A DNA stretch of 33,551 nucleotides from Paracoccaceae bacterium. Its GTDB lineage: Bacteria; Pseudomonadota; Alphaproteobacteria; Rhodobacterales; Rhodobacteraceae. Both the position numbers and the translations under genes were made by a program. Positions 1,727 through 25,333 of the stretch are shown piece after piece. Location: NCBI GenBank assembly GCA_019090795.1, contig JAHRVG010000083.1:1-33551 (forward strand). Direction: 5' to 3'. The notes beneath the pieces are model-generated. The model was not told where the DNA came from, searched no databases, and saw only the letters and a list, made by a program, of their open reading frames with translations. Within the stretch, counting starts at the first letter, position 1. Each line of letters begins with the position of its first letter.

Positions 1727-4021
1727 CTAGATATTGTCGTCACAGCGCAAAACACAGCGCACGGAACCCTTCACAGCCTCTGACCACTTCAGATCAAACT
1801 CGCTGCCGTTGGTCCCCTTGCTGCCCTCAAAATATGGCTGCGTATAGACCTTTACATTTGATGCGTTCTTGATCGCCCCGATCGGAACAGCCGCCGTCAT
1901 ATTACGTGCATGGCCTTTGAAAGGCATGTATTTTGCAGCATCCGTTCGCCAACTATTGCTGGGCGAACTTTCCGTTGCGACCATATGCACCGGATTGATG
2001 AAGGGATTTTGCACATTTGTGAATGTATTCCCCTCAACGGTGATATTGCGGTATTTATCCAGCCGCATCGTTGCAATTGATGTATCCAGTTCCTCGACCC
2101 GGTCTAGCTCTGGCCCCGAGAAAGCTTTGAAAACATTGCCAATTATCGACAAGCCATTAATAAAATGGCCCGTACCATGTGGTTTGATCTGTATCCAGGT
2201 GAACCAGCTTGCCGCACCAGACGAGGTGAAATGATTGCCGGTAAAGCTCAGCCCCCCAAAGGAAAACCCCGACACAATATCCGGTGTCGCATCGTGTTCG
2301 TTGGTCCACTCGATAAAACAGTTATCAACGTAATTGCCAAAAAAGCTGGTTTTCGGGTGGTTATGGGCAAAGACCAAACCGGCTGAACGGGCCGTCCCTC
2401 CTGCCGAATCCTCTTGGAAAAAATGGTTGCCAGTAATGATCCCACCGCGACCAGAGATCACGCCCCAATGCTTGAACCTAATGGCCCGGTTATCCCGAAT
2501 TTTGGGATCGCTTGCATTGATATTGAAGCCGATGGATTTCCGGTCATCCACCCCCAGTTGCTGCTCGTTTGAGAGCCACTGGTTCCGGTCCAACAGAATG
2601 CCGGAACAGCCAGTGCCCGCGGATGTCAGGCCGCGATCTTTGGGGGCCGAAAAATAACAGTCCTTCACATGAAAAATCAAACCCTCATCCGCCAGCATCA
2701 ACCCGCTGCATTTACCGCCGCAAGAAAAGTTGAGGTTGTCGATTACAAAGCGCTTCAACGAAGTAAAGCCCGAAAAATCAAGCTGATACTTGAAACGGGT
2801 AAAGCTGTAGGTCTGGCTTGCTGGTGCGCCCCACAATTCGCGGCTCAGCGTGATTGTATTGGCACTGGTGTTCACAGAACGCACATAAACCTCGCGCCCC
2901 ACGCCGGTGCCAGTGATCAACGCTCCGACCGGAATCGTATTGATGTTGTTAACCCCTGTTAGCTGGTTGGGGTTGTCTGGGTCATAGCTCGCTGTTGCCG
3001 TCACTAGCGTGTCATTCCAATCCGAACTTGTTGCCGAATTTAGCTGCCCGTTACAGATCACCCGCCGATTGGAAAAGTCGTTCTTGTTACCGACCACGGT
3101 ATGCACATCGACAGGCCGGGTCAGTTCAACACTGCGTCCACATAGATCCAGCTGGACATGGTCGGTGAAATTGAACATCGCCTGCAAGGCCTTCTCGAAC
3201 CCCAATTGCTCATTGCCAAAAGCGGTGAAATAGGTCGGATAGTCGAAATTCTGGATAAGCTGTAGAATTGCGCTGTCGGGCATGGTCACAGTACCCTGAA
3301 ACCGGATTTCCGAGTTTATGGTCACGGTTCCACCCAGAAAGTAAATTCCCTCCGGAACCAAGACAGAGCGTCCTGCTGCCGCCGCATCTGCCGCCTCGAA
3401 TGCCGCTTTATCATCCGTTACACCGTCACCGATTGCGCCGAAATCACGGACATCGACAACATCAATTTTGGATCCCTGAAAAAACGACGTGACATCTTCA
3501 ATAATAATATCATCAATGCGCACCACACCACCATTTACGCCGGTCAGATCAATCCCAAAGTGGCCAAAAGTCGGCACCTGCCCCCAAGGCATATCCACAC
3601 CCGTTCGCGAGCCTGAACCAACAATCGCCGTGATTTCAACCACTTCCCCATAGGTGGTTAGCGCTACCGAACTGCCTGTCTCGAAAACACCGGCCACATG
3701 GGCACCGCCCGCCTGCCCCGCCCAGGCCGCAACCCGAACCGAGGGCAGCGGCCCGCTGATCGCCTTGACAAAAACCCGTACCCGCCAATAGCACCCAACC
3801 AGCATCGGCGTTTCACCAGTATAACGCAGCTTTTGCGTACTGCTGGTCTTTTGCAGCTCCAGACAGCCGCCAAAATCCGCATCTGCGGCGATCAAGGTAG
3901 CGTTGCCGGCCCCGTCATAGGTTGCTGATCCCGGCGTGCCGTCCTCGCTTGACCAGACAGTCAACCCAAATTCAAACGCAGGTGGCATCAACTGAATACC
4001 GTCGGTAATTGCCTTGTTCAT
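1727..4021 (-). CDS. Pectate-lyase/GH28-related right-handed beta-helix protein
   Basis: This is a large protein of 764 residues. The N-terminal ~185 residues look like a beta-sandwich or carbohydrate-binding module, with many aromatics and a VVRIDDIIIEDV end. Near residue 190 comes VVDVRDFGAIGDGVTDD, the signature opening of pectate-lyase-superfamily and glycoside hydrolase 28-related beta-helices. Asn- and Gly-rich helix turns follow (GNHF, GNVF, EGNTF). I see no signal peptide, so any export would need another route. ATG at 4021 is preferred over the TTG one codon earlier because AAGGAA precedes it at a normal distance. Similar proteins are widespread in Rhodobacteraceae, usually annotated as GH28-related. 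The substrate is not readable from the sequence, and enzymatic activity should not be assumed. The gene stands alone between two terminators. Confidence 0.75.
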   Translation of the reverse strand: MNKAITDGIQLMPPAFEFGLTVWSSEDGTPGSATYDGAGNATLIAADADFGGCLELQKTSSTQKLRYTGETPMLVGCYWRVRVFVKAISGPLPSVRVAAWAGQAGGAHVAGVFETGSSVALTTYGEVVEITAIVGSGSRTGVDMPWGQVPTFGHFGIDLTGVNGGVVRIDDIIIEDVTSFFQGSKIDVVDVRDFGAIGDGVTDDKAAFEAADAAAAGRSVLVPEGIYFLGGTVTINSEIRFQGTVTMPDSAILQLIQNFDYPTYFTAFGNEQLGFEKALQAMFNFTDHVQLDLCGRSVELTRPVDVHTVVGNKNDFSNRRVICNGQLNSATSSDWNDTLVTATASYDPDNPNQLTGVNNINTIPVGALITGTGVGREVYVRSVNTSANTITLSRELWGAPASQTYSFTRFKYQLDFSGFTSLKRFVIDNLNFSCGGKCSGLMLADEGLIFHVKDCYFSAPKDRGLTSAGTGCSGILLDRNQWLSNEQQLGVDDRKSIGFNINASDPKIRDNRAIRFKHWGVISGRGGIITGNHFFQEDSAGGTARSAGLVFAHNHPKTSFFGNYVDNCFIEWTNEHDATPDIVSGFSFGGLSFTGNHFTSSGAASWFTWIQIKPHGTGHFINGLSIIGNVFKAFSGPELDRVEELDTSIATMRLDKYRNITVEGNTFTNVQNPFINPVHMVATESSPSNSWRTDAAKYMPFKGHARNMTAAVPIGAIKNASNVKVYTQPYFEGSKGTNGSEFDLKWSEAVKGSVRCVLRCDDNI

Positions 4022-4200
4022 CAAAATTCCTTTCCAGTTCGCCCAGACGCCAGCAGCGGGTTACCCGCCTGCTTCACCTTTTCAGGCTTTGCGTAATAAT
4101 CACGAAGTCTCACAGATTTGACCGGACGCCAGATCGCGCGCCGGAATGCTTTGGAAATAGCAATTTTGACTTAATTTATTGTAAGAGTAGCGCACGCTCC

Positions 4201-4234
4201 AAAAAAAACGCAGCCACCCTGCAAGGTGGCTGCG
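4201..4234 (-). terminator. Rho-independent terminator after the universal stress gene
   Basis: A perfect 10-bp stem CGCAGCCACC (4209-4218) pairs with GGTGGCTGCG (4225-4234) around a 6-base loop. On the - strand an eight-base U-run (4208-4201) follows it. The hairpin lies 38 bases after the usp stop and ends that single-gene transcript. The rest of the gap to 4021 shows no clear promoter for the beta-helix gene. Confidence 0.92.
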
Positions 4235-4271
4235 CTAGAATCAGTGGTGCAAGGTTTGTCGTGCTATAGCC

Positions 4272-4679
4272 TTAGCGAACGACGTGAACCGAACAAGGCG
4301 CATGGCGCACGACCCGCGCGGCGGTTGAGCCAAGGAAATAGTCTTGCAAACCGGGGCGATGCGACGCGACAACAATACAATCCGTTTCATGTTCGCGGGC
4401 AAATTCAACGATTTTCTGCCCCGGGCTGCCAAACAGAACCTGACGCTTAACACCCGGAACATGCTCTACCGCAGCTTTCAGCCCGTCTTTCAATCCGACC
4501 CGGCGCTCTTCTTCATAGCCGTTGGGCAGATAACTGGTAGCAAAAGTCGGGATTGGCTCATCTACATACACAGCCGTAATTGTACCGCCCTCACTCAACA
4601 AAGCTTGCGCTGCTTCCAACGCGCGCGGGGTGTTGCGTTCTTGGTCCAATGATACGGGCACGAGAATATTTTTATACAT
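4272..4679 (-). CDS. Universal stress protein, UspF/UspG type
   Basis: This is a single-domain cytoplasmic universal stress protein of 135 residues, the usual length. The start MYKNILVPVSLD is the first beta strand of the family. The C-terminal ATP-binding segment reads VASHRPGLQDYFLGSTA, followed by ARVVRHAPCSVHVVR. The ASHRP-x5-LGS form is that of the UspF/UspG nucleotide-binding subgroup rather than UspA itself. ATG 4679 has AGGAGAG a few bases upstream. The gene is transcribed alone, with a strong terminator downstream. An FNR/FnrL-type box centred 63 bases before the start codon suggests induction under low oxygen, as known for several Usp genes. The cellular role is otherwise undefined. 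Confidence 0.92.
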   Translation of the reverse strand: MYKNILVPVSLDQERNTPRALEAAQALLSEGGTITAVYVDEPIPTFATSYLPNGYEEERRVGLKDGLKAAVEHVPGVKRQVLFGSPGQKIVEFAREHETDCIVVASHRPGLQDYFLGSTAARVVRHAPCSVHVVR

Positions 4680-4735
4680 GAGGCTCTCCTATTTTAGGTT
4701 GTTTGTAATCTTACCATGTTCACCAAAGCACAGCT

Positions 4736-4749
4736 TTGATGCATGTCAA
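4736..4749 (-). promoter_or_regulatory. FNR/FnrL-type operator upstream of usp
   Basis: Read on the - strand this is TTGAC-ATGC-ATCAA, one base from the FNR consensus TTGAT-N4-ATCAA. It lies within an 8-bp-arm inverted repeat (4732-4739 and 4746-4753). A possible -10, TAAGAT at 4713-4708, sits where a class II FNR promoter would need it (operator centre about 41 bases before a start site near 4701). The match is seen; oxygen regulation is inferred. Confidence 0.68.
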
Positions 4750-4791
4750 AGCTATTTCAAGGCCCAGCCTAGCAATTTTTTTCCACCACAA

Positions 4792-4818
4792 GGCGCAATG
4801 CCGCGCGCCCATTGCGCC
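4792..4818. repeat. Perfect 9-bp inverted repeat in the lysK-usp gap
   Basis: GGCGCAATG (4792-4800) and CATTGCGCC (4810-4818) flank a GC-rich 9-base loop. It lies about 100 bases after the lysK stop and has no U-run on the lysK side. It could be a weak 3' end for lysK mRNA or a protein site. I see nothing else in 4750-4919. Confidence 0.5.
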
Positions 4819-4919
4819 GCCCGGATCCAGTACTGTGATCAGCCAGACAATCGGGCGAAACCACAGCGGCACTTTTGCGGCTTCAAAGTGTTCAGCGGTT
4901 CATGGCCTGTGGTCGTACT

Positions 4920-13272: not shown

Positions 13273-15219
13273 TTAGCTCCGGTTCATCCGGTTCTCGATC
13301 AGCTCTTCCACCACGCTCGGGTCTGCCAAGGTCGAGGTATCCCCCAGCGCATCGAAATCATCCTCGGCGATTTTGCGCAAGATACGGCGCATGATTTTAC
13401 CAGAGCGGGTTTTGGGCAGACCCGGCGCCCATTGCACCAGATCCGGCGTCGCAATCGGGCCGATTTCCTTGCGCACCCATTGGCGCAGCTCAGCGCGCAG
13501 GTCGTCGGTGTATTCCGCGCCTTCCATCAAGGTAACATAGCAATAGATGCCTTGGCCCTTGATCTCATGGGGATAGCCGACAACAGCGGCTTCGGACACT
13601 TTGGGGTGCGCCACAAGGGCACTTTCGACCTCGGCCGTGCCCATACGGTGACCGGAAATATTGATTACGTCATCTACCCGCCCGGTAATCCAGTAATGGC
13701 CATCCGCGTCTCGCTTACAGCCGTCACCGGCAAAGTAATAGCCTTTGTAATCCGCGAAATAGGTTTTGATAAACCGCTCATGATCGCCATAAACCGTGCG
13801 CATTTGGCCGGGCCAGCTGGATTTGATCGCCAACACGCCCTCAGCCGGGCTGGTGTGGATTTCTTCTCCGGATGTTGGCTCCAGAACTACAGGTTCGACG
13901 CCAAAGACCGGCACCATGCAGGAACCCGGTTTGGCGGCATGGGCACCGGGCAACGGCGTCATCATGTGACCACCGGTTTCGGTCTGCCACCATGTATCCA
14001 CAATCGGGCATTTGCCTTTGCCAACAATGTCATTGTACCAGTTCCAGGCCTCCGGATTGATCGGCTCGCCGACCGTTCCCAGCAAGCGAATGCTGGAGAG
14101 GTCGCATTTGGTTACCCATTCGTCACCCTTTGCCATAAGCGCGCGAATTGCGGTGGGGGCGGTGTAGAACTGGTTGACCTGATGCTTGTCGCACACCTGC
14201 CAGAACCGCGACGCATCGGGATAAGTTGGCACGCCTTCAAACATCAAAGTTGTCGCACCATTGGCCAGCGGGCCATAGATGATATAGCTGTGGCCGGTGA
14301 CCCAACCCACATCTGCGGTACACCAGAAGATATCGCCCTCGTGATAATCAAAGGTGTATTTATGGGTCATGGAGGCGAAAACCAGATACCCGCCGGTGCT
14401 GTGAACAACGCCTTTAGGGGTGCCTGTGGAACCAGAGGTATAGAGAATAAACAGCGGATCTTCGGCTGCCATTGGCTCCGGTGGGCAATCAGCCGAGACC
14501 TCTTTTTCCAGTTCATGCAGGTAAAAGTCGCGGTCATTAATCCACGTAGTTTGCCCGCCCGTGTGCTGCACTACCAACAATTTTACGTGGTCATTGCAGT
14601 GCAAAAGCGCCGCATCCGCGTTTGATTTCAGCGGCGTATCGCGCCCCCCCCGTGGGGCGTAATCAGCCGTAATAACCACCCGCGCGCCGGAATCATTGAC
14701 CCGGTTGGCCAGTGCATCGGGCGAAAACCCGGCAAACACGATTGAATGCACCGCACCGATACGCGCACAGGCCAGCATAGCAAAGGCTGCCTCGGGGATC
14801 ATTGGCAAATACAGGATGACCCGGTCGCCTTTGCTAACGCCCATACCCTTGAGGACATTCGCAAACTTGCTGACCTTTTCGTGCAGCTGATTATAGGTGA
14901 TTTTTTTGTCCACCTCGGGATTGTCAGATTCCCAGATGATTGCGGTTTGGTCGCCGCGCTTTTCCAGATGGCGGTCAACACAGTTGGCGCAGACATTCAA
15001 AAGACCGTCTTCATACCATTTGATCGACACATCCGGGTGTTCAAAGGTGGCATTGCGCACAATGCTGTAGGGCTTGATCCAGTCCAGCCGTTTACCATGT
15101 TCTCCCCAAAACTTGTCGGGATCAGCAATCGACTCTTTGTACATTGCCTCGTAGCCCGCCAAATCAACGTGGGCGTTGGATGTAAATTCGTCGGATGGGG
15201 GATATGTCTCTTGGCTCAT
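13273..15219 (-). CDS. acsA: Acetate--CoA ligase (acetyl-CoA synthetase)
   Basis: This AMP-forming synthetase makes acetyl-CoA from acetate, ATP and CoA via acetyl-AMP. The length of 648 residues is standard. Motifs seen are the P-loop-like [12 protein letters not shown], the acetate-pocket region [18 protein letters not shown], the hinge-side [23 protein letters not shown], and the C-terminal [11 protein letters not shown]. In the last, Lys608 corresponds to the lysine acetylated by Pat/AcuA-type enzymes and reactivated by sirtuin deacylases. ATG 15219 follows AGAGGA. It is the last gene of a - strand operon with a binding protein and four Liv-type components. A hairpin in the 100-base gap before it (15276-15313) may partly uncouple its expression. 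No ActP-type acetate permease gene is present in the window. Propionate use is possible, but the sequence fits AcsA best. Confidence 0.95.
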
Positions 15220-15319: not shown

Positions 15320-16078
15320 TTAAATGGCCAGATAATCGTGGCGCAGTTGCTCGTTTTCCAGAACTTCCTGGGCAGTGCCGTCAAACACTACCTTACCCGT
15401 GTCCAGAATAACGGCGCGGTCGGCCAGCTTCAGTGCCGCAATAGCATTTTGCTCCACGATGATGGTGGTCATGCCTTGCTCGCGAATGTGTTTCAGGGTT
15501 TTCTCGATTTCCTGAACAATCACGGGAGCGAGGCCCTCATAGGGTTCGTCCAGCAACAACAGCTTGATGTCACGCGCCAGCGCACGGCCAATCGCCAGCA
15601 TTTGCTGCTCGCCACCCGACAGGGTGGTGCCCTCTTGCTTGCGGCGCTCGCCCAGACGCGGGAACAGCTCATAAATGCGTTCAATCGACCAGCCGATGGG
15701 TTTTTCAATCTGCGCCAATTGCAGATTTTCCTCAACAGTCAGACCTTGGATGATCCGGCGATCTTCTGGCACCAACTGCATACCCAGTTGCGCCGCCTGA
15801 TAGGCCTTCATAGTGTGCAGCGGTTGGTGATCAAGCCAAACTTCGCCCTTTACCAGCATCGGGTCGGCAAGGCGTGCGATTGCACGCAAGGTCGAGGTTT
15901 TTCCCGCCCCGTTGCGGCCCAATAGAGCCAGAATTTCACCCTCTGCCACGTTGAAAGTAACACCTTGAACGATGTAACTCTCGCCGTAATAGGCATGAAT
16001 ATCATGGGCCGAAAAATAGGCCGGTTCAGAGCGCGGCTTATCCACACCCATGGTGTTTGTATCTAGTCCGAGCGTCAT
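15320..16078 (-). CDS. Liv-type ABC transporter ATP-binding protein (LivF-like)
   Basis: This is the second ATPase of a branched-chain-amino-acid-type (HAAT family) importer, acting at the inner face of the membrane with the LivG-like partner. It has 252 residues. Walker A is GRNGAGKT, the signature LSGGEQQM, Walker B LLLLDEPYEGLAP, and the H-loop region follows in IIVEQN. EGLAP after Walker B and the VPEDRRIIQGLTVEENL stretch are LivF features. The N-terminus carries about 20 extra residues before the usual start of the fold (YFSAHDIHAYYGES), so a later start is possible. ATG 16078 overlaps the stop of the LivG-like gene by four bases (ATGA), indicating coupled translation. The transported substrate is not readable from the ATPase; position before acs suggests a carboxylate or a compound that yields acetate. 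Confidence 0.93.
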   Translation of the reverse strand: MTLGLDTNTMGVDKPRSEPAYFSAHDIHAYYGESYIVQGVTFNVAEGEILALLGRNGAGKTSTLRAIARLADPMLVKGEVWLDHQPLHTMKAYQAAQLGMQLVPEDRRIIQGLTVEENLQLAQIEKPIGWSIERIYELFPRLGERRKQEGTTLSGGEQQMLAIGRALARDIKLLLLDEPYEGLAPVIVQEIEKTLKHIREQGMTTIIVEQNAIAALKLADRAVILDTGKVVFDGTAQEVLENEQLRHDYLAI

Positions 16079-16833
16079 TCCGCTGCCTCCCCAAGATAGG
16101 CTTCCTTGACCTTTGGATGGCCTTTGATATTTTCCGGCAAGTCTTCGACAATCACCGTACCCTGAGCCAACACCGATATTTTTTGTGCCAGTGAGAACAC
16201 TACATGCATGTCATGCTCAATGATCGCCATGGTGATGTGGCGACGTTCCTGAATACGGGCCAACAGCTCGATTGTGTTGTTGGTATCCGCGCGCGCCATG
16301 CCCGCTGTAGGTTCATCCAGCAACAACAACTGCGGGTCTTGCGACAGGCACATGGCCATCTCAAGACGCCGCTTGTCACCGCGTGACATGCTGCTGGCGG
16401 TCATATGCATCTTGTCGGCCATATCCACATCCAGCAGCATCTTTTCTGCCTTCTCGCGGATGTCGACCTCTTGCTCTACCCGTTCAATCGCGTGCATACG
16501 AAACGCGCCATCGCGTTTGGCAAAACAGGGGATCATCACGTTTTCAAACACCGTCAGGTCGCCAAAGATCTCGGGTGTTTGAAACACCCGGCTAACGCCC
16601 ATCTGGTTGATGTCATAAGGCTTTTTTCCCAGCAGGCTTTGCCCGTTAAACGTCACTGATCCTGTGTCCGGCACCAGTTTGCCGACGAAACAGTTCAGCA
16701 GGGTTGATTTACCGGCCCCGTTGGGACCGATGATTGCGTGAATTGTGCCTTCCTCAACGGAGAGGTTCACGTTTTGCAACGCTTTCAACCCGCCAAAGCT
16801 TTTGTTCACATTCTGGACTTCAAGAATTCCCAT
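16075..16833 (-). CDS. Liv-type ABC transporter ATP-binding protein (LivG-like)
   Basis: This is the first ATPase of the HAAT-type importer and has 252 residues. Walker A is GPNGAGKST (about 36-44), the signature is SRGDKRRLEMA rather than the usual LSGG form, and Walker B is LLLLDEPTAGMA. The switch His is in IIEHDMHVVFSLA. The divergent signature SMSRGDKRR is notable: the Leu is Met and the first of the two Gly residues is Arg. This variant is seen in some Liv-like ATPases linked to urea or amide transport, but I cannot confirm its distribution. The start ATG 16833 has GGAG upstream; the gene is 11 bases after the LivM-like stop and overlaps the LivF-like start by four bases. Confidence 0.93.
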   Translation of the reverse strand: MGILEVQNVNKSFGGLKALQNVNLSVEEGTIHAIIGPNGAGKSTLLNCFVGKLVPDTGSVTFNGQSLLGKKPYDINQMGVSRVFQTPEIFGDLTVFENVMIPCFAKRDGAFRMHAIERVEQEVDIREKAEKMLLDVDMADKMHMTASSMSRGDKRRLEMAMCLSQDPQLLLLDEPTAGMARADTNNTIELLARIQERRHITMAIIEHDMHVVFSLAQKISVLAQGTVIVEDLPENIKGHPKVKEAYLGEAAE

Positions 16834-16844
16834 TATGTGTCTCC

Positions 16845-18035
16845 TTATTCAGCAGGTTTTGTGGTTGAAGCGCCGGTCTCGTCGATGTCGCCCTTGCTAC
16901 CAAAGCGGTTGCGGATGCGCTCTGCGCCCTCCATCAGACCACCGGGCAGGAAGATCACCACCATCATGAACAACAAACCAAGGGTCAGGTGCCAGCCATC
17001 GCCGGTAAAGCGGGCAAATACCCAGACCAAGAGGTTTTCCAGGCCGTCAGGCAGGAAATCAAACCAACCGTGCAACACGTTCTCGTTGATCTTGGAAAAA
17101 ATGTTTTCCAGATACTTGATCGCGCCTGCACCCAATACTGGCCCAAGCAACGTTCCTGCGCCACCAAGGATGGTCATCACAACCACCTCGCCGCCCACAG
17201 TCCATTGCATCCGTTCAGCCCCCGCCAAAGGGTCCATGCTGGCCAGCAAACCACCCGCCAAACCGGCATACATGCCCGAAATCACAAAGGCAGCCAGGGT
17301 GTATGGGCGTGGGTTCAGGCCGGTATAGCTCATCCGGTTTTGGTTGCTTTTCACCGCCCGAAGCATCAGCCCGAAAGGTGAGCGGAAGATGCGCAAGGAC
17401 AGATAGAACGAGCAAATCGCGATGAAGGCACAAACATAAAAGCCAACGTTAAAGGTGAACAAGTGGCCCCAGACCTCCCATTTGGCAGAGCTGCTCATTT
17501 GCAGGCCAAACAGGTTGGTGTAGGTGGAGCTGCCTTCCCCATCCAAAATGCGCAGGTCATTGGGACGAATTTGCAACCCGGTCTCGCCATTGGTGATCGG
17601 GGTGAGTACCGAATAGGCAAGGTTATAGGACATTTGCGCAAAGGCCAGCGTCAGGATCGAAAAGTAAATCCCCGACCGTCGCAGGCTGATATAGCCGATC
17701 ATCAAGGCAAACAGGCCCGACATAATCACGGCCAGAATAATCCCCGGAATGATGTTCATCGACAACAGCTTGAACATCCAGACCGCAGAATAGCTGCCCA
17801 CACCCAGAAACGCGGCATGACCAAAGGACAGATAGCCCGTCAGGCCAAACAGGATGTTGAAACCTATGGCAAAGATGCCAAAGATCGCCACACGCTGCAT
17901 CAGGTCAGGATAGCCCCCGTTGAACTGCGCCATTGCGCTGCTCTCGGAAAACGGCTGCATCACAAAAGGCGTGCTCAGCGTCAACAGGATCACGATGATC
18001 AGGAACTTGGTGTCTTTATTGTTTAATCCCAGCAT
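16845..18035 (-). CDS. Liv-type ABC transporter permease (LivM-like)
   Basis: This integral membrane permease of the HAAT-type importer has 396 residues and about nine or ten hydrophobic helices. The LivM signature is seen: [22 protein letters not shown] (about 60-81), [19 protein letters not shown], and [13 protein letters not shown] followed by a cytoplasmic loop. The C-terminus is hydrophilic (about 25 residues after FLPGGLMEG). ATG 18035 is preceded by GGAGG inside the end of the LivH-like gene, three bases after its stop, so the two permeases are made together. It should pair with LivH-like in the heterodimeric channel. Confidence 0.93.
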
Positions 18036-18038
18036 GGT

Positions 18039-19073
18039 CTAATCCTCCATCACGCCTTTTTTACCCATCAGACCGCGCGGACGGGTCAAAAGGATGATGA
18101 TTGCAACAAGGTAGATGATGATTTGGTCAATGCCCGGCAAGATCGATTTGATCTCGTTCATCGAGGCAAAGCTTTCCAGAATACCCAGCATGAACCCCGC
18201 CAGAATGGCTCCGGGCAGGCTGCCCATGCCGCCAACAACCACCACTACAAAGCTCAGCACAAGAAAATCCATCCCCATGTGATAGTTCGGACTGTTGATC
18301 GGCGTGTACATCACACCCGCAAGCCCGGCAACTGCCGCCGCCACACCGAACATAATGGTGAAACGCTTGTCGATGTTGATGCCCAGCAGGCCAACGGTTT
18401 CGCGGTCCACCATACCCGCGCGCACAACCATCCCGAAGGTGGTAAAGCGCAAGAAGGAGAACACGCCACTGATAATGATGACCGAGAACACGAAATAGAC
18501 GATCCGCCAGAAAGGATAGATGATTTTATTCGCCTCGAACCCTAACATAGTGCCAAAATCAAACGAGCCTTTGAACACATCAGGCGCGGGGGTCGGGATC
18601 GGGTTGGCGCCGTAGAATTGTTTGATAACCTCTTGCAAAACGATTGCCAGACCAAAGGTCACAAGGATCTGATCCGCGTGCGGACGATTATAGAAATGCT
18701 TGATCAGCCCGCGTTCCATCGCCCAGCCGATAAACAGCATGATCGGGATCGCAAACAGGATCGCCAAAGGCACCGACCAGTCAATGATCGCCTGACCCGT
18801 TGCCTCGCCAAACCACACTTCGACATAAGGGGTTTTGACTTTCAGCGCATTGCCAAGGAAATCCGTCTTGCTTTCGTCAATGGTGATCTGCGAGATCATC
18901 AGGATCTTTTGCAAAGTCACTGAGCAGAAAGCCCCGATCATAAACAGCGCTCCGTGGGCAAAGTTCACCACGCCCAGCGTGCCAAAAATCAGCGTCAGAC
19001 CCAAGGCAATCAGTGCATAAGCGCTGCCTTTGTCCAAGCCATTCAATAGTTGAAGAATTATCTGGTCCATCAT
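18039..19073 (-). CDS. Liv-type ABC transporter permease (LivH-like)
   Basis: This is the other permease of the importer and has 344 residues. It begins MMDQIILQLLNGLDKGSAYALIALGLTLIFG and continues GVVNFAHGALFMIGAF, the LivH hallmark, with about eight hydrophobic helices. It shows a longer loop than E. coli LivH between helices (residues ~75-105, ISQITIDESKTDFLGNALKVKTPYVEVWFGEATG). ATG 19073 or the immediately following ATG 19070 is the start; GGGCGGGG precedes them. The reading frame is open further 5' into the end of the binding-protein gene, but that part is not LivH-like. A hairpin with a U-run lies between the binding-protein stop and this start. Confidence 0.92.
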   Translation of the reverse strand: MMDQIILQLLNGLDKGSAYALIALGLTLIFGTLGVVNFAHGALFMIGAFCSVTLQKILMISQITIDESKTDFLGNALKVKTPYVEVWFGEATGQAIIDWSVPLAILFAIPIMLFIGWAMERGLIKHFYNRPHADQILVTFGLAIVLQEVIKQFYGANPIPTPAPDVFKGSFDFGTMLGFEANKIIYPFWRIVYFVFSVIIISGVFSFLRFTTFGMVVRAGMVDRETVGLLGINIDKRFTIMFGVAAAVAGLAGVMYTPINSPNYHMGMDFLVLSFVVVVVGGMGSLPGAILAGFMLGILESFASMNEIKSILPGIDQIIIYLVAIIILLTRPRGLMGKKGVMED

Positions 19074-19146: not shown

Positions 19147-20490
19147 TTATGCGCCTGGGTTACACTTACCCAATTCGCCACCAGCAAACATTGGGTGATC
19201 CGGTGCGTATTCAACCTGCGCACGTGGGGTCACTTCAACAACTTCCAGAACGTCAAACTCGGATGTGGGGTTCTCTTTACCCTTCACAACCAACACGTCC
19301 TTAAAGCACTGGTGGTCTTCGGCGCGGTATTCAGTTTCACCGTTGCCCAGACCATCAAACTTGAAGCCTTCCAATGCTTCACCAACACCACAAGGATTGT
19401 GGGTGCCAGCGCGCTCACACGCATCCGCATAAAGCAGAGTTTGGCAATACACAGTGTGTGCAGCCTGCGAAGGAGGGAAGCCGTATTTTGTACCGAAGGA
19501 TTTAACAAAAGCTTTGGAGCCTTCATCCTGCAGCGACCAGTGCCAGTTGGTTGAACCAAAGATACCTTTAACGTTCTCACCCGCACCTTTCGCCATCAGA
19601 CGAGAGTACAGAGGCACAACGATTTCAAAGTTATTGCCGTTTACAACTTTGTCACGCAGACCAAACTGAACCGCAGCAGTCAACGAGTTGATCATGTTAC
19701 CGCCGTAGTGGTTCAGAACCAGAATATCGGCTCCGGAGTTCAGCACAGGCGCTACATATGACGAGAAGTCAGTTGTCGCCAGCGGGGTTAGCACGTTGTT
19801 TACGGTTTCCCAGCCTTTGGCTTCTGTTGCAGCCTGGATGGACTCTTGTTGTGTCCAGCCCCAGGTGTAGTCAGCAGTCAGGTGATAGGCACGACGGTCT
19901 TTGCCATACATTTTTTCCAGCACTGGTGCCAAAGCCGCGCCAGACATATAGCCGTTAAAGAAGTGACGGAAGCCGTTGGCTTTCTTATCTTTACCGGTTG
20001 TGTCGTTGGAGTGGGTCAGCCCGGCCATGAAGATTACGCCAGCTTCTTGGCACAGACCTTGAACAGCAATCGCAACACCCGAAGAAGAGCCGCCAGTGAT
20101 CATCACTGCGCCATCTTTTTCGATCATGGATTTCGCAGACGCACGCGCCGCATCCGATTTGGTTTGCGTGTCACCGGTCACAAAGGCCACCTTGTTGCCA
20201 AGGATACCGTTACCCTTCAGCGCATTGGAGCTGAAAGTGTTCATCATGCCGCCATCACCGCCACCGTTCAGGTGCTCGACTGCCAGCTCGTATGCGCGCA
20301 GCTCATCCGCACCCTCGTCGGCGTAAGGGCCGGTTTGGGGAACGTTAAAGCCCAGCGTAACTTTGCCGCCCGATGGGGCGTTCGTATATGCGTTCGCTTG
20401 CGAGGTGAAGAATGTTGGCATTGCCAGACCGGCACCAACAACAGCACCACCCTTAAGCAGGCCGCGACGGGTTGTTTTATTATGAGACAT
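19147..20490 (-). CDS. ABC transporter substrate-binding protein (Leu/Ile/Val or amide-type), Tat signal
   Basis: This periplasmic binding protein of 447 residues belongs to the type I periplasmic-binding fold of HAAT importers. The N-terminus TTRRGLLKGG (RR at residues 8-9), then a hydrophobic stretch ending SQANA, is a twin-arginine signal, so the protein is exported folded. The mature part opens GKVTLGFNVPQTGPYADEG, the ligand-cleft strand of the family, and contains GGSSSGVAIAVQGLCQEAG. Several Cys occur (EAGVIFMAG region, VYCQTLLYADACERAGTHNPCG, HQCFKD), which is unusual for a periplasmic protein and fits Tat export. ATG 20490 is preceded by GGGAGGAAATCT. It is the first gene of the operon and directly faces the palindromes at 20637-20673. 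The ligand is unknown; linkage to acs suggests a short-chain carboxylate or precursor. Confidence 0.92.
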   Translation of the reverse strand: MSHNKTTRRGLLKGGAVVGAGLAMPTFFTSQANAYTNAPSGGKVTLGFNVPQTGPYADEGADELRAYELAVEHLNGGGDGGMMNTFSSNALKGNGILGNKVAFVTGDTQTKSDAARASAKSMIEKDGAVMITGGSSSGVAIAVQGLCQEAGVIFMAGLTHSNDTTGKDKKANGFRHFFNGYMSGAALAPVLEKMYGKDRRAYHLTADYTWGWTQQESIQAATEAKGWETVNNVLTPLATTDFSSYVAPVLNSGADILVLNHYGGNMINSLTAAVQFGLRDKVVNGNNFEIVVPLYSRLMAKGAGENVKGIFGSTNWHWSLQDEGSKAFVKSFGTKYGFPPSQAAHTVYCQTLLYADACERAGTHNPCGVGEALEGFKFDGLGNGETEYRAEDHQCFKDVLVVKGKENPTSEFDVLEVVEVTPRAQVEYAPDHPMFAGGELGKCNPGA

Positions 20491-20626
20491 AGATTTCCTC
20501 CCAATCATCTCGTGAACCGGATCAGCGTGAATAGAAGCGTGAATCCAGAGTTGTCAGTGTAGACCAGTGCATTGTCGCGCCTTTTGTGAATAAATCAATA
20601 AATACTTGCTTTTCCTATATTTTTTT

Positions 20627-20640
20627 GTAAATTCCTTTAC
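20627..20640. promoter_or_regulatory. Imperfect operator half-site pair next to the palindromes
   Basis: GTAAA (20627-20631) and TTTAC (20636-20640) form an inverted repeat with a 4-base spacer. The centre is 11 bp, one helical turn, from the centre of the next palindrome, extending the array towards the binding-protein gene. Confidence 0.45.
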
Positions 20641-20652
20641 TGTATACAGTAA
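20637..20652. promoter_or_regulatory. Perfect 16-bp palindrome, likely ScfR-type regulator operator 1
   Basis: TTACTGTATACAGTAA is a perfect palindrome in the divergent gap between the binding-protein operon and the XRE/ScfR regulator operon. Its centre is 21 bp from that of the second palindrome, so both face the same side of the helix. Position next to the regulator gene suggests autoregulation and control of the transporter-acs operon. Confidence 0.7.
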
Positions 20653-20657
20653 TAAAC

Positions 20658-20673
20658 TGTAAATATATTTACA
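20658..20673. promoter_or_regulatory. Perfect 16-bp palindrome, likely ScfR-type regulator operator 2
   Basis: TGTAAATATATTTACA is a second perfect palindrome, sharing the TGTA ends and TTTAC half-site with the first. It lies 38 bases before the regulator start codon, so binding here would affect the regulator's own promoter. The A/T-rich stretch 20575-20636 towards the binding-protein gene should hold that operon's promoter, but I cannot assign -35 and -10 boxes. Confidence 0.7.
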
Positions 20674-20710: not shown

Positions 20711-21985
20711 ATGGTCCGCACTCTAGTCGGCAGCCGCATTCGCGAACGCAGACGCGCCCTCAAACAGACACAATCGGCGCTCGCGCAGGCTGTCGGCATT
20801 TCAGCTTCCTACCTAAATCTGATCGAACACAATCGCCGGGGAATCGCTGGTCGCACGCTTTTGGCGCTGGCAGCAGAGCTGGAAGTGGACATCAGCGAGC
20901 TGTCAGAGGGGGCGGATGGCGTGTTGGTCAACCGCCTGACCGAAATCGCCAAAACCAGCAGTGAAATTCCGGAGATCGAGCGTACAGAAGAATTCATCGG
21001 CCGCTATCCGGGCTGGGCGAAACTGCTGGCCAGCGTCGGCAAAACAGCCCAGAGCCAACGGGAAAATCTGGCGGCCCTGACCGACCGGATGAACCACGAC
21101 CCGTTCTTATCCGAAACCATGCACCAGATCCTGTCCAATATCACCGTGATCCGCTCCACCGCCGGAATTCTGGATACCACACCGGATATTTCCGATGAAC
21201 ACCGCACCCGTTTCCTGAAAAATATCCGCACCGAAAGTCAGCGCCTCTCGACCACAGCACAGGCCATGGTGGATTTCTTTGACGCCCCGCAGACCGAAAC
21301 CACCGCCACACCTCACCCAGAAGATGAATTCTGGGTGCAGCTCAAACATCACCTCCCGGAACTGGAGGCAGGCATCACCACCATCGAGACCCTGCTGGAC
21401 CAGCAACCGAAGCGCACCGCTACCAGTACCAGTGCCTTGCAGCATTCCCTGCAATACTATCGCGACGTGGCGCGCGATCTGCCGCTCGACGCTTTTCACA
21501 GGGCGATCAGCAGCACCGCTTGCGATCCGCTGGCGCTGGCCCAGCATTTCAACACTCCGGTGATCAACGTGTTGCACCGGCTGGCCCATTTGCCCGCATC
21601 CCCTGACACCCCCGCCTTTGGCCTGATGGAGTGCGACATGTCCGGCGCAATCCTGCTGCGCAAGGAAATCCCCGAATTCGCCCTACCGCAATATTCCAGC
21701 GCCTGCCCGCTCTGGCCGATCTACCGCGCCTTCGCCGCCCCCGGTCAACCGATCCGAGCGGTGCTGGAAATGCCAACCGGGGTGCAAGTCACCACCTTCA
21801 GCATCGCCCGCACCATCACAAGTGATCGTTATGATCTGCCGCCGCTGCTGCGATCCACGATGATCTTCACCACCGACCCTCGCGCCGCCCTGCCCACCAG
21901 CCCGCCAATCCTTGCAGGGTTGCATTGCTCTGTCTGCCCACGCAAGCACTGCGCGGAGCGGCGCATCGACTATATACTTTCGTAG
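20711..21985 (+). CDS. XRE-family ScfR-type (short-chain fatty acid) transcriptional regulator with DHp-like segment
   Basis: This DNA-binding regulator has 424 residues. Residues 8-64 are a Cro/CI helix-turn-helix (RIRERRRALKQTQSALAQ, then SASYLNLIEHNRRG). The C-terminal part (about 270-424) matches the ScfR/DUF2083 region of RamB- and PrpR-like regulators of acetate and propionate metabolism: ALAQHFNTPVINVLHRLAHL, SSACPLWPIYRAFAAPGQPI, LEMPTGVQV, and a Cys cluster HCSVCPRKHC at the end. Residues 130-191 are unusual. They resemble the HisKA dimerisation hairpin of histidine kinases (FLSETMHQIL, IRSTAGIL, RTESQRL) and align without gaps to residues 668-729 of the kinase encoded 2.7 kb downstream. 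No ATPase domain is present. ATG 20711 has AAAGGA upstream. Probably the first gene of a four-gene operon. Confidence 0.88.
   Translation: MVRTLVGSRIRERRRALKQTQSALAQAVGISASYLNLIEHNRRGIAGRTLLALAAELEVDISELSEGADGVLVNRLTEIAKTSSEIPEIERTEEFIGRYPGWAKLLASVGKTAQSQRENLAALTDRMNHDPFLSETMHQILSNITVIRSTAGILDTTPDISDEHRTRFLKNIRTESQRLSTTAQAMVDFFDAPQTETTATPHPEDEFWVQLKHHLPELEAGITTIETLLDQQPKRTATSTSALQHSLQYYRDVARDLPLDAFHRAISSTACDPLALAQHFNTPVINVLHRLAHLPASPDTPAFGLMECDMSGAILLRKEIPEFALPQYSSACPLWPIYRAFAAPGQPIRAVLEMPTGVQVTTFSIARTITSDRYDLPPLLRSTMIFTTDPRAALPTSPPILAGLHCSVCPRKHCAERRIDYILS
21098..21283 (+). other. DHp/HisKA-like hairpin inside the ScfR-type regulator
   Basis: These bases encode residues 130-191. Position-by-position comparison with kinase residues 668-729 gives 18 identities in 62 without a gap. 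These include the phospho-accepting His (His138 against His676), FLS before it, IR and IL after it, and TES-x-RL in the second helix. The Glu and Pro after the kinase His are not conserved. Whether the His is phosphorylated is unknown. Confidence 0.6.
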
Positions 21986-22053
21986 CGTATCCACCTTGCC
22001 AGCACCCCGACAATCACCTTATGCTAAAACTGCCATTGAACTGGGAGGAAGAC

Positions 22054-22419
22054 ATGGCCGGTAAAATCCTTCTGATTGAGGATGAGCCCCACATCGTAGA
22101 AGCTTTGTCCTTCCTGTTGGAGCGAGAGGGCTGGCAGGTGGTTGCCCATTCCAATGGCGCTGATGCGGCGCAAGTGGCGGCGCTGCGCCAACCGGATGTG
22201 ATTATCCTCGACGTCATGCTGCCCAACAAAAGCGGCATCGAAATCCTCAGGGAAATCCGCGCCAACACGCAAACCGCGCAAAAACCGGTGCTGATGCTTA
22301 CCGCCAAAGGGCAGGCCCGCGACCGCGCGGCAGCACAAGAAGCCGGCGTCAGCGTCTTCATGACCAAGCCGTTTTCCAATCAAGCCATCATCGACACTGT
22401 CAGGTCGCTGGCCCAATGA
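22054..22419 (+). CDS. Stand-alone response regulator receiver domain (CheY-like)
   Basis: This single receiver domain of 121 residues has no output domain. It has the acidic pair (Glu9-Asp10, with Glu11), the phosphorylation site Asp53 in VIILDVMLP, Thr83 in MLTAK and Lys105 in MTKPF, so it should be competent for phosphorylation. ATG 22054 is preceded by GGGAGGAA. It lies 68 bases after the ScfR-type regulator and overlaps the small membrane-protein gene by four bases (ATGA), so the two are translationally coupled. In CbrAB and CrbSR systems the regulator paired with this kind of kinase has a DNA-binding output. Here the output is missing, so the signal must pass to another protein. Confidence 0.93.
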   Translation: MAGKILLIEDEPHIVEALSFLLEREGWQVVAHSNGADAAQVAALRQPDVIILDVMLPNKSGIEILREIRANTQTAQKPVLMLTAKGQARDRAAAQEAGVSVFMTKPFSNQAIIDTVRSLAQ

Positions 22420-22670
22420 GCAGCGAGACCTCCAGCTTTCTTGAGCGCGACCAGCAAGCACAACGCAAACGCAAAACCCGCGAGGCAGCGGCCTTCCTGC
22501 CAATCCTCGGCGTCATTTTGCTACTCACCCCGATGATCTCTGTCTTCACCCAGGACACCCGCACCGGCGGTATACCCAATGCGGTGTTCTATGTTTTTGG
22601 CGTCTGGCTGCTGCTGATTGGTCTGACCTTTCTGATCGCCCCACGCCTGCAACAGGACGACAAAGACTGA
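22416..22670 (+). CDS. Small two-helix membrane protein upstream of the symporter-kinase
   Basis: This protein of 84 residues is not confidently assigned to a family. A basic N-terminal segment (QQAQRKRKTREA) is followed by two hydrophobic helices, about residues 26-44 (FLPILGVILLLTPMISVF) and 57-75 (VFYVFGVWLLLIGLTFLIA), with a charged C-terminus. By the positive-inside rule both ends should be cytoplasmic. It overlaps the receiver gene by four bases and the kinase gene by one base (TGATG), so all three are made together. The position matches small subunits of sodium/solute symporters (DUF4212) and the small coupled cbrX gene before cbrA in Pseudomonas. A role as accessory subunit of the kinase's transporter domain is inferred. 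Confidence 0.75.
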   Translation: MSSETSSFLERDQQAQRKRKTREAAAFLPILGVILLLTPMISVFTQDTRTGGIPNAVFYVFGVWLLLIGLTFLIAPRLQQDDKD

Positions 22671-25333
22671 TGCAGCCGTTTAACCTGCTCGTCACCATTT
22701 GCCTGATCTATGTTATTGGTTTGTTTGTCATCGCCTATGTTGCGGAAAAAGGCGCAGCCGAGGGCAGGCTGACCTTTCTGCGCTCCCCCGTGGTCTATAC
22801 CCTGTCGCTTTCGGTCTATTGTACCGCATGGACATTTTACGGCGCGGTTGGTTCCGCAGCCCGCAACGGCCTGGAATTTGTCGCCATTTACCTAGGCCCT
22901 ACCCTCGTTTTCATGGGCTGGTGGTGGCTGTTGCGTAAACTGGTGCGCATCGGGCGCACCCAGCGTATCACCTCGATTGCCGATCTGATCTCCTCGCGCT
23001 ATGGAAAATCTAACACGCTGGCGGTGATCGTCACCTTGATGGCGGTGATCGGCACCACACCCTATATTGCGCTGCAACTGCAATCCCTCACTCTCAGCTT
23101 TTCAGCCTTTACCGCCGATAGCGGCCAATCCATCCCCTCCCCCGCCGTCACCGCTTTCTGGGTCGCTGTTGGCCTTGCGGTTTTCACCATTTTTTTCGGC
23201 ACCCGCAATTTGGATGCCAATGAGCGCCACCACGGCGTTGTCACGGCCATCGCGGTCGAGGCGGTGGTCAAACTGGTCGCTTTGCTATCGGTTGGCATAT
23301 TCGTGGTCTGGGGCGTGGCCGATGGCCCCTCGGATATCTTTTCACGCATGGATCCAGAGCTGCTCAAGGGGGGGCAAATTTTCACCCCGCGTTGGGTAAC
23401 TTTGATGTTTCTGTCCTCCACCGCGATCATCTGCCTGCCGCGCATGTTTCAGGTGGTTGTTGTGGAAAATTCCGTCGAAAAACATCTGGCAACGGCCAGC
23501 TGGGCCTTCCCGCTGTACCTGTTCGGGATGAGCCTGTTTGTATTGCCCATCGCCATCGCGGGCCAAAGCGAGCTGCCCGTCGGTGCAAACCCCGACCTGT
23601 ACGTGATGACGGTGCCCTTGGCCAAAGAGCAAACCGGCCTTGCTGCGCTGGCTTTTCTGGGGGGGTTTTCCTCGGCCACGAGCATGGTCATCGTTGCTGC
23701 CATTGCCCTTTCAACCATGATGTCCAACCACATCGTGTTGCCGCTTTGGCTGACCCTGAACAGAGGCCGCAACCCCCAGAGCGACGACGTGCGCACCTTA
23801 CTGTTGCGCGCGCGCCGGCTCAGCATAGGTGGCATTTTGGCGCTGGGGTATTTTTACTATCAGATCACCGGTGGCACCGATGCGCTGGCTTCTATCGGGT
23901 TGATCGCCTTTTTGGGCGTGGCACAGGTCATGCCCGCCCTTTTGGGTGGTATTTTCTGGCAAGGCGCCACCCGCAAAGCTGCCATCGCAGGGATCACTAC
24001 CGGCTTTGCTCTATGGGCCTACACCCTGTTCTTGCCCAGTTTTGGCGGTGCCTTTATCCTGTCCCAGACCACAATCGACCACGGCCCGCTTGGCATCGCT
24101 CTGCTGCGTCCCTACGGGTTGCTGGGATTGAACATCCCGGACCATCTGGTACATGCGGTCAGCTGGTCTATTGGCATGAACACACTCGTGTTTATCACAA
24201 CCTCGCTGTTCACCACACCGCGTCCGATCGAGCGCCGCCAAAGCGTGCAATTCGTTAATGTCTATGGTCGGTTCTCACCGCGCAGTGGTAGAAGCCACAG
24301 TGCAGAACCCGAAGAATTGCTGGTTCTGGCACAGCGCATTCTGGGACGAAATACGGCCATTAAACTGTTCAACGAAACCGCCGCAGAACAAGGCAAATCG
24401 CGGGGCCTGCCCGACCCCACCGACAGCTTTATGGAAAAACTGGAGCGGGATTTCGCCGGTTCTGTAGGGGCTGCGACCGCCCATGCGATGCTGGGGCAAA
24501 TCACAGGCGGCCCGGCTGTATCCGTCGAAGATATGATGGCCGTGGCCGATGAAACCGCCGGAATCATGGAATATTCCGCCCGCCTGAAAGCCCAATCGGA
24601 AGAGCTGACCAAAACCGCACAACAACTGCGCAAAGCCAACCTGCAACTGATGGAGTTGGGCGAACAGAAAGACACGTTTCTCAGTCAGGTCAGCCATGAA
24701 TTGCGCACGCCCATGACCTCTATTCGTGCCTTCTCCGAAATCCTGCGCGACAGTGATCAGCTAGAACCCGACCAGCTGAAACATTTTTCGGGCGTGATCC
24801 ACACTGAAAGCATCCGCCTGACCCGTCTGCTCGACGACATTCTGGATCTGAGCTTTATGGAAAACGGCCAAGTGAAGCTGAACATCCGGAGAACTGACCT
24901 CGGAAGCATTATAGATCGCGCCATCACCACCACAGAAACCCACCTGCAAGAGCGCAAAATTCTGCTCAAGCGGGATCTGGATCACGAGGCGATTACCGTG
25001 AACACCGATCCGGACAGGCTGGCGCAAGTATTAATTAACCTGATTTCCAATGCCGCGAAATATTGTAGCGCCCAAAAGCCTGAGGTCTCAATCAGTTGTG
25101 GGCGCAGTGCTAGCGCGGTACTCATAGACGTGGCTGACAACGGCAGTGGTATCGAAGCGGCAGACATCGACCTGATTTTCCAGAAATTTTCCAGACTTAG
25201 CGGCGTGTTTTCTGCCGGTAGCGCCGGTCTGGGGCTACCGATCAGCCGTGAAATCATGCGAAACCTCAAGGGCACGCTGACCTATGTGCCCACTGCAAAG
25301 GGCGCATTGTTCCGGATTACCCTTCCCCTGTAA
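22670..25333 (+). CDS. Sodium/solute symporter (SLC5)-type sensor histidine kinase, CbrA/CrbS-like
   Basis: This is a membrane fusion protein of 887 residues. Residues 1-515 form a sodium:solute symporter domain with about 13 hydrophobic helices (opening LLVTICLIYVIGLFVIAYV, with YSLS-like YTLSLSVYCTAWTFYGAVG and RYGKSNTLAV). Residues ~545-645 look like the STAC linker found between SLC5 and kinase parts (LAQRILGRNTAIKLFNETAAEQG; ERDFAGSVGAATAHAM). A coiled-coil leads to HisKA with H-box FLSQVSHELRTPMTSIR (His676) and a HATPase with N-box NLISNAAKY, DNGSGI, FQKFSR and GLGLPIS. No PAS domain is seen, unlike CbrA. Kinases of this type sense histidine (CbrA) or acetate-linked metabolism (CrbS, which controls acs in Vibrio and Pseudomonas). 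Being next to an acs operon suits a CrbS-like role, but the cognate regulator here is only a receiver. Confidence 0.93.
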   Translation: MQPFNLLVTICLIYVIGLFVIAYVAEKGAAEGRLTFLRSPVVYTLSLSVYCTAWTFYGAVGSAARNGLEFVAIYLGPTLVFMGWWWLLRKLVRIGRTQRITSIADLISSRYGKSNTLAVIVTLMAVIGTTPYIALQLQSLTLSFSAFTADSGQSIPSPAVTAFWVAVGLAVFTIFFGTRNLDANERHHGVVTAIAVEAVVKLVALLSVGIFVVWGVADGPSDIFSRMDPELLKGGQIFTPRWVTLMFLSSTAIICLPRMFQVVVVENSVEKHLATASWAFPLYLFGMSLFVLPIAIAGQSELPVGANPDLYVMTVPLAKEQTGLAALAFLGGFSSATSMVIVAAIALSTMMSNHIVLPLWLTLNRGRNPQSDDVRTLLLRARRLSIGGILALGYFYYQITGGTDALASIGLIAFLGVAQVMPALLGGIFWQGATRKAAIAGITTGFALWAYTLFLPSFGGAFILSQTTIDHGPLGIALLRPYGLLGLNIPDHLVHAVSWSIGMNTLVFITTSLFTTPRPIERRQSVQFVNVYGRFSPRSGRSHSAEPEELLVLAQRILGRNTAIKLFNETAAEQGKSRGLPDPTDSFMEKLERDFAGSVGAATAHAMLGQITGGPAVSVEDMMAVADETAGIMEYSARLKAQSEELTKTAQQLRKANLQLMELGEQKDTFLSQVSHELRTPMTSIRAFSEILRDSDQLEPDQLKHFSGVIHTESIRLTRLLDDILDLSFMENGQVKLNIRRTDLGSIIDRAITTTETHLQERKILLKRDLDHEAITVNTDPDRLAQVLINLISNAAKYCSAQKPEVSISCGRSASAVLIDVADNGSGIEAADIDLIFQKFSRLSGVFSAGSAGLGLPISREIMRNLKGTLTYVPTAKGALFRITLPL

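Follow-up and report, generated by a model that had tools for sequence, protein, structure and literature searches.

How does a response regulator that consists of a receiver domain alone reach DNA? The question is raised by an operon on contig JAHRVG010000083.1 of the Paracoccaceae bacterium assembly GCA_019090795.1, analyzed here as a stretch of 33,551 nucleotides (the window), in which a receiver-only gene lies between the gene for an ScfR-family transcription factor and that for a symporter-like histidine kinase. A first-pass annotation had noticed that the transcription factor (the regulator) carries a likeness of the dimerization and histidine phosphotransfer (DHp) hairpin of the kinase, and had proposed the receiver as the link between the two. 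We consider it fairly probable that the kinase phosphorylates the receiver, which then docks on this acyl-coenzyme A (acyl-CoA)-type regulator of acetate assimilation and perhaps phosphorylates it, in a system resembling CrbS/CrbR with a different output.

The likeness itself was confirmed at the residue level. Regulator residues 130–191 and kinase residues 668–729 align without gaps, with 18 of 62 positions identical and His138 opposite His676, and the coordinates and reading frames first given for them are right. Shuffling the regulator segment 2000 times never produced the local alignment score of 72 (highest shuffled score, 65). In Pfam, the regulator matched HTH_3 (36.6 bits) and ScfRs (PF09856; 52.9 bits), both above cut-off, and a check against the HisKA profile (PF00512) gave a match over residues 132–188 with an expectation value (E) of 0.0047 and 17.4 bits (segment alone, 3.9e-4 and 20.9 bits; cut-off 26.9 bits). 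The distant orthologues L254 (38.7 bits) and L256 (38.3 bits) passed this cut-off, and the H-box of both reads HELRT; both chains also bear M78 and ScfRs, HTH_3 was found in L254, and L256 begins at a contig end. HisKA was matched at E ≤ 0.01 by 17 of 57 aligned orthologues (best 3.5e-8), and the NCBIfam kinase profile CreC matched the same stretch of the regulator (E 2.8e-4, below its cut-off). The regulator query itself found matches in 74 of 101 genomes, paralogues included. No HATPase match was obtained in the regulator at E ≤ 1, that is, no catalytic and ATP-binding (CA) domain follows the hairpin.

Further comparisons tie the hairpin to the kinase encoded in the same operon. Profile–profile alignment of regulator hairpins with cognate kinase DHp domains gave a probability of 99, and a regulator-hairpin profile run over the window's own genome ranked the regulator itself, then the same-operon kinase (50.4 bits), then the next kinase (27.2 bits). 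Because the cognate kinase leads by 23 bits, a likeness to histidine kinases in general is unlikely. A tree was built from 50 regulator hairpins, 54 cognate kinase DHp domains and 21 rows from 22 other HisKA places in the own genome (one place gave no row; the L279 row looks like a wrong frame). Regulators and cognate kinases formed one clade (support 0.90) apart from the 21 other rows, and the regulators a clade of their own (0.91); with the other rows as the root, five of the 54 kinases fell outside the main kinase clade of 49. The sequences hint that the regulator hairpin was captured from within this kinase family. Chance similarity is ruled out by the shuffles, the own-genome ranking and the tree, and on this sequence evidence the likeness is one of homology.

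Structure prediction likewise returned the expected helical hairpin. The AlphaFold2 model of the regulator (57-row alignment; mean predicted local distance difference test score (pLDDT) 87.4) contains helices at residues 100–129, 131–156 and 162–191, the last two forming the hairpin. With the whole regulator as the Foldseek query, the hairpin not being isolated, M. tuberculosis PrpR ranked first, and the best 50 of 626 matches comprised PrpR and helix-turn-helix (HTH) proteins and no histidine kinase. Searched against PDB sequences, the hairpin profile placed HK853 first among the matches listed (E 0.0011).

The receiver is as first described: its phosphorylation residues are intact and Pfam finds no output domain, LuxR-type or other, with Asp53 present in all 160 family receivers. 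The kinase carries no receiver domain of its own. The window kinase gave no SSF (PF00474) match at E ≤ 1, and its orthologue L064 did match SSF (37 bits, cut-off 22.8); STAC was absent from the Pfam matches of the window kinase, no search aimed at STAC by name having been made. A synteny survey of 179 regulator rows (the window, 60 loci from relatives, 80 named loci and 38 from a class survey) bore out the linkage of regulator, receiver and kinase, with 153 rows in operon layout (151 scored as such, plus L044 and L127, recoded by hand for over-long receiver open reading frames (ORFs)); some of the other rows are cut by contig ends (L098, L133, L155 and L256). Of 141 loci, 128 have a receiver gene and a kinase gene close to the regulator and in its orientation. 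A search of nine genomes with an incomplete layout found the kinase in eight, each time with an adjoining receiver gene, and none in G011. In the class survey of 385 genomes, 54 matched the hairpin profile at E ≤ 1e-10; 45 had the regulator by frame length and 44 of these had the kinase, unlinked cases included, the exception (G128) being 68% complete. Genome G061 has two such receivers (L066 and L184), one beside the regulator and one beside an unlinked kinase.

Position 138 of the regulator is His in 171 of the 179 rows, Phe in four, Tyr in two and Gln in two; without eight duplicate rows, His is found in 163 of 171 distinct sequences and in 154 of 161 clusters at 90%. The replacements are Phe in L069, L253, L257 and L262, Gln in L259 and L261, and Tyr in L067 and L260. 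They affect 7 of the 26 rows without operon layout versus 1 of the 153 operon rows (L067), and come from about four lineages, so that they do not count as independent cases. The His is conserved in the great majority of the family but not in all of it: because about four lineages lost the residue and one genome (G011) has no detectable kinase, phosphotransfer to His138 cannot be universal. Four residues after the His (H+4), Ser or Thr occupies 173 of 179 rows; at H+1, Glu or Asp occurs in 99 of 179 and many residues are tolerated, among them E, Q, L and R.

The face of the hairpin that a receiver would meet is also conserved. Presumed docking positions, those that touch the receiver or determine specificity, were taken from offsets in work on DivL–DivK, HK853–RR468 and EnvZ–OmpR, as far as passages of those reports give them (PMC4211667, PMC2991266), the exact position sets being our choice. 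In helix 1 these positions average 0.98 bits of entropy, compared with 1.38 for the core and 2.44 for other exposed positions. Covariation was assessed in 160 regulator–receiver–kinase triples with 26-residue windows, a procedure in which common ancestry is only partly removed; entropy-normalized mutual information was dropped, being dominated by near-invariant columns, and filtered runs were used instead. In the full set, the receiver docking positions covary most with regulator residues 131–156, first of 80 windows; the kinase helix served as the positive control, its value being reached by 4 of 173 windows. This covariation between receiver docking positions and hairpin is modest, and supports the proposed contact without being decisive.

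What such a regulator might control is suggested by its surroundings; the first-pass annotation overlooked the operon that is the probable target, a pair of operator-like boxes and a small fourth gene. Divergent from the regulator, and starting about 200 bp from its start, lies the gene for a substrate-binding protein, followed by two permease genes, two ATPase genes and acsA. The binding-protein gene is there in 143 of 179 loci, and is kept even at loci that are unlinked or have lost the His (L061, L069, L078, L253, L257 and L259–L262). The shared intergenic region contains TGTAAA-N4-TTTAC twice, 17 bp apart. Operators of ScfR regulators pair two boxes of nearly the same sequence, separated in the case of RamB by 18 bp, according to passages of the PccR report (PMC10370305). 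Of 141 upstream regions, 32 contain the dyad GTAAA-N4-TTTAC, and no dyad exceeded two in one mononucleotide shuffle. A double-box pattern allowing up to three mismatches was run over 41 genomes; the window site supplied this pattern and therefore matches it by design. In the own genome and in 20 of 24 other same-genus genomes, the pattern precedes the regulator by 38–67 bp; two matches lie elsewhere (G006:C83 and G065:C30), and the reversed control gave four matches in three genomes. Because only G065 of 16 genomes outside the genus matched, the exact box is a genus-level feature. Definition of a regulon by the single palindrome (≤ 1 mismatch) was abandoned: of five places in the own genome, two are the boxes and the remaining three seem to lie within or next to coding ORFs, and strand counts were 5 + 5 versus 6 + 6 for the reversed control.

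An IrrE/M78-like middle domain belongs to the canonical ScfR architecture. M78 was not matched in the window regulator, and 8 of 57 orthologues have it. Each Cys of the C-terminal CX2CX4C motif is kept in 175 or 176 of 179 rows. By analogy with PrpR and RamB, the window regulator may bind CoA thioesters and a [4Fe4S] cluster.

The first-pass interpretation is partly supported: the points in it that sequence can address (HisKA homology, a helical hairpin, a conserved His, linkage to receiver and kinase, and a low-entropy presumed docking face on helix 1) held up. Based on these findings, we propose a plausible mechanism for a compact signaling locus. In it, a transcription factor would take its input through a reused DHp hairpin of a symporter-like kinase. 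The kinase would autophosphorylate and then phosphorylate the receiver at Asp53, as the intact motifs suggest. The phosphorylated receiver may dock on the regulator hairpin by the same face as on the kinase, which would fit both the conservation and the modest covariation. Docking, together with phosphotransfer to His138 where the His is kept (for which we see about an even chance), would alter the regulator's hold on, or use of, the two boxes. Position and conservation point to the divergent ATP-binding cassette (ABC) transporter, acsA and the regulator's own operon as the most likely targets, and by homology to PrpR and RamB the C-terminal ScfR domain with its conserved cysteines would add an acyl-CoA co-input. 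The response regulator would be split into a receiver and a separate DHp-bearing DNA-binding protein, together forming an alphaproteobacterial acetate-uptake switch.

Several observations weigh against this mechanism. The window regulator stays under the HisKA cut-off, as a whole and as a segment, and its H-box is degenerate (HQILSN), missing the Pro of the HELRTP type. The His has been lost in the eight rows listed above, and genome G011 (L078/L101), rated 98% complete, keeps the regulator, the His and the double box with no kinase found. For helix 2, the mean entropy of the three presumed docking positions is 1.81 bits, close to that of the hairpin as a whole (1.88), so that they lend no further support. 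Covariation weakens in the core family (123 triples), where 4 of 80 regulator windows and 0 of 172 kinase windows reach the value, and with the own-genus set removed (132 triples; 6 of 80 and 9 of 173). On the target side, the binding-protein gene is missing at 36 of 179 loci. The nearest divergent gene there is Acs in L118 and L058 and, in L068, one matching the sodium/solute symporter superfamily below cut-off; the divergent genes of L254 and L258 start with similar-looking sequence, that of L254 (cut by the locus end) having no NCBIfam match at E ≤ 1e-30, and the neighbors at the remaining loci are varied or unidentified. Acs is divergent and upstream in 28 of the 69 loci with at least 6300 upstream bases (window included), a count in which many flanks end at or before the site. 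Finally, the transporter received no substrate assignment: its NCBIfam names all fall below cut-offs, and among solved structures the closest binding proteins belong to the branched-chain amino acid and urea types.

Three other explanations of the hairpin were weighed against receiver docking. RetS forms a mixed four-helix bundle with GacS, and the regulator hairpin could likewise pair with the kinase DHp, which would keep the regulator at the membrane or let the kinase ATPase domain phosphorylate it directly, with the receiver serving another branch. The closeness of the hairpin to the cognate kinase DHp and the conserved His would suit such a bundle, but helix 1 keeps its presumed receiver-docking face better than its core, the receiver docking positions covary with the hairpin, and the receiver gene is linked too, with no output of its own; we regard this arrangement as unlikely. 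Only slightly less likely, in our estimate, is that the hairpin is a dimerization module and nothing else, a relic of a captured DHp with no two-component input, in an operon held together by other forces. DNA-binding proteins of this kind need a dimerization module, which speaks for such a relic, as do the eight losses of the His, seven of them in rows that are not operon-linked, and G011 with its regulator and undetected kinase. Nevertheless, conservation of the exposed His and of the presumed docking face exceeds that of the core, and the kinase accompanies the regulator in all but one of the surveyed genomes, even where the two are unlinked.

The regulator might instead act as a sink or phosphatase for the phosphorylated receiver through an HExxT/S-like motif, feeding back on the kinase branch, with DNA binding answering to acyl-CoA only. 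The prevalence of Ser/Thr at H+4 and of Glu/Asp at H+1 is in its favor; H+1 nonetheless varies freely, and the receiver would be left with no output encoded in the locus, and we find this the least credible of the three. Receiver docking on the regulator remains the explanation that we prefer. Since some lineages have lost the His, the family offers a natural test of docking versus histidine phosphorylation as the signal.

Available passages on related systems place this arrangement among known ones. As in CrbS/CrbR and RpuS/RpuR, whose kinases are of the SLC5/STAC type (PMC5715377, PMC5436829, PMC9100948), a symporter-like kinase is gene-linked to acetate activation (acs). The S. fredii kinase is a hybrid with PAS and receiver domains and acts on a LuxR-type response regulator (PMC9100948), whereas here a receiver-less kinase is accompanied by a separate receiver and a DHp-bearing ScfR protein. 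The ScfR/IsaR regulators PrpR (PMC6765138), RamB and PccR (PMC10370305) share with the window protein the HTH, the ScfRs domain, the CX2CX4C motif and a two-box operator; the window protein differs in having a DHp-like hairpin between the HTH and the C-terminal part and no M78 (IrrE-like) match. Residues 81–154 of PrpR are not visible in its structure (PMC6765138). Docking of a receiver-only protein on a DHp other than that of its kinase is known from Caulobacter, where phosphorylated DivK binds DivL, but DivL is a pseudokinase with Tyr for His and no DNA-binding domain (PMC4211667), whereas here the His is kept and the DHp lies within a transcription factor. In Sphingomonas, the single-domain receiver SdrG gives phosphate to a conserved His of the phosphotransferase-like PhyT, which hands it on to the PhyR receiver (PMC5898713); here the His protein would itself be the DNA-binding protein. 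VadK, a kinase encoded beside prpR, was discarded as a precedent for a His-phosphorylated ScfR, since in the passages at hand its deletion leaves cycle-gene transcription unaltered.

Among the open-access papers listed in literature searches, none describes a DNA-binding regulator whose DHp hairpin is served by a receiver. Pden_1785, a Paracoccus denitrificans protein of the ScfR network, is mentioned in passing as clustering with two-component genes, with no hairpin noted in the passages found (PMC10370305), and is probably an orthologue of the window regulator; passages found of a C. sphaeroides transposon study do not mention this locus. If the proposal is true, it would explain how a receiver with no output domain reaches DNA, and the usual roles are reversed, the DHp, normally the kinase end, becoming the input of a DNA-binding protein. 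Beside acs, many alphaproteobacteria might then connect a sensor of the symporter-like type with the sensing of acyl-CoA.

Table 1 Features of the regulator operon, its upstream region and the divergent operon, in window positions.
Feature	Position	Strand	Basis
ScfR-family regulator, 424 amino acids (aa): HTH 10–64, DHp-like hairpin 131–191, ScfRs domain 303–419	20711..21985	+	Profile matches, AlphaFold2
DHp-like helical hairpin, regulator residues 131–191	21101..21283	+	HisKA match, AlphaFold2 helices, family conservation
His138 codon	21122..21124	+	His in 171/179 rows
CX2CX4C motif (Cys406, Cys409, Cys414); Cys332 kept too	21926..21952	+	PrpR [4Fe4S] ligand pattern, from passages of PMC6765138
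Receiver-only response regulator; Asp53 codon 22210–22212	22054..22419	+	Profile matches, family alignment
Small protein, 84 aa, two hydrophobic stretches, overlaps both adjoining genes	22416..22670	+	ORF reading, conservation
Symporter-like histidine kinase, 887 aa; HisKA 666–733, HATPase 779–887	22670..25333	+	Profile matches
Operator-like box 1, TGTAAA-N4-TTTAC	20626..20640	.	Sequence pattern
Operator-like box 2, TGTAAA-N4-TTTAC	20658..20672	.	Sequence pattern
Perfect palindrome, 16 bp, between and overlapping the boxes	20637..20652	.	Read from the window sequence
Divergent ABC-transporter substrate-binding protein (Peripla_BP_6), probable target	19147..20508	-	Profile match, synteny
Divergent transporter: two permease and two ATPase genes	15320..19073	-	Profile matches
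acsA, acetate--CoA ligase	13273..15219	-	TIGR02188, 1005.9 bits (cut-off 724.95)

The receiver probably starts at the ATG at 22054. The small fourth gene covers the receiver stop and the kinase start; a related ATG-started ORF is present in 113 of 129 loci, and its Pfam match to TMEM_230_134 is weak and below cut-off.

Another protein type occurs beside the same kinase. In nine class genomes (L280–L288) the kinase was found with no regulator match, and all nine have a receiver of this type in the vicinity of the kinase. Seven of these loci (L281–L286 and L288) have a long ORF between the receiver and the symporter-like kinase. When these seven sequences were searched with the two hairpin profiles, all of them matched both, with Glu, Thr or Ser in the His column. 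Of the four that were scanned, all contain an RNase_T exonuclease and a PAS domain, and three match HisKA at E 5e-4 to 0.011, below cut-off. We read the proteins of the seven loci, among them those at L282:2651-4726, L283:8436-10511, L284:1759-4338 and L286:2164-4263, as having the order PAS, DHp-like hairpin, CA-like domain and DEDDh exonuclease; a low-confidence model of the L283 protein (pLDDT 68) matches exonucleases and histidine kinases. Near-full-length matches to the exonuclease protein (> 500 bits) occur in 11 of 385 genomes. G128, G143 and G399 have both this protein and the regulator, and the two are therefore not mutually exclusive; in the regulator-bearing genomes G067 and G248, the match to the exonuclease protein covers profile parts 17–270 and 491–719 only, leaving out the hairpin region.

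From these gene arrangements we infer that DHp-bearing effectors may have been exchanged around one kinase–receiver pair. A bolder reading, which we hold only tentatively, is that the DNA-binding regulator is a phosphohistidine protein whose captured DHp takes phosphate on its His from a receiver-only shuttle, and that DHp hairpins are exchangeable effector adaptors, joined by lineage to an ScfR regulator or to a PAS–pseudokinase–exonuclease protein. In the regulator-less lineage L281, the genes beside the kinase (432-2222 and 3379-4851) encode a symporter of the VC_2705 family (729 bits, cut-off 320.75) and an ORF with a start that looks CBS/DUF294-like by eye.

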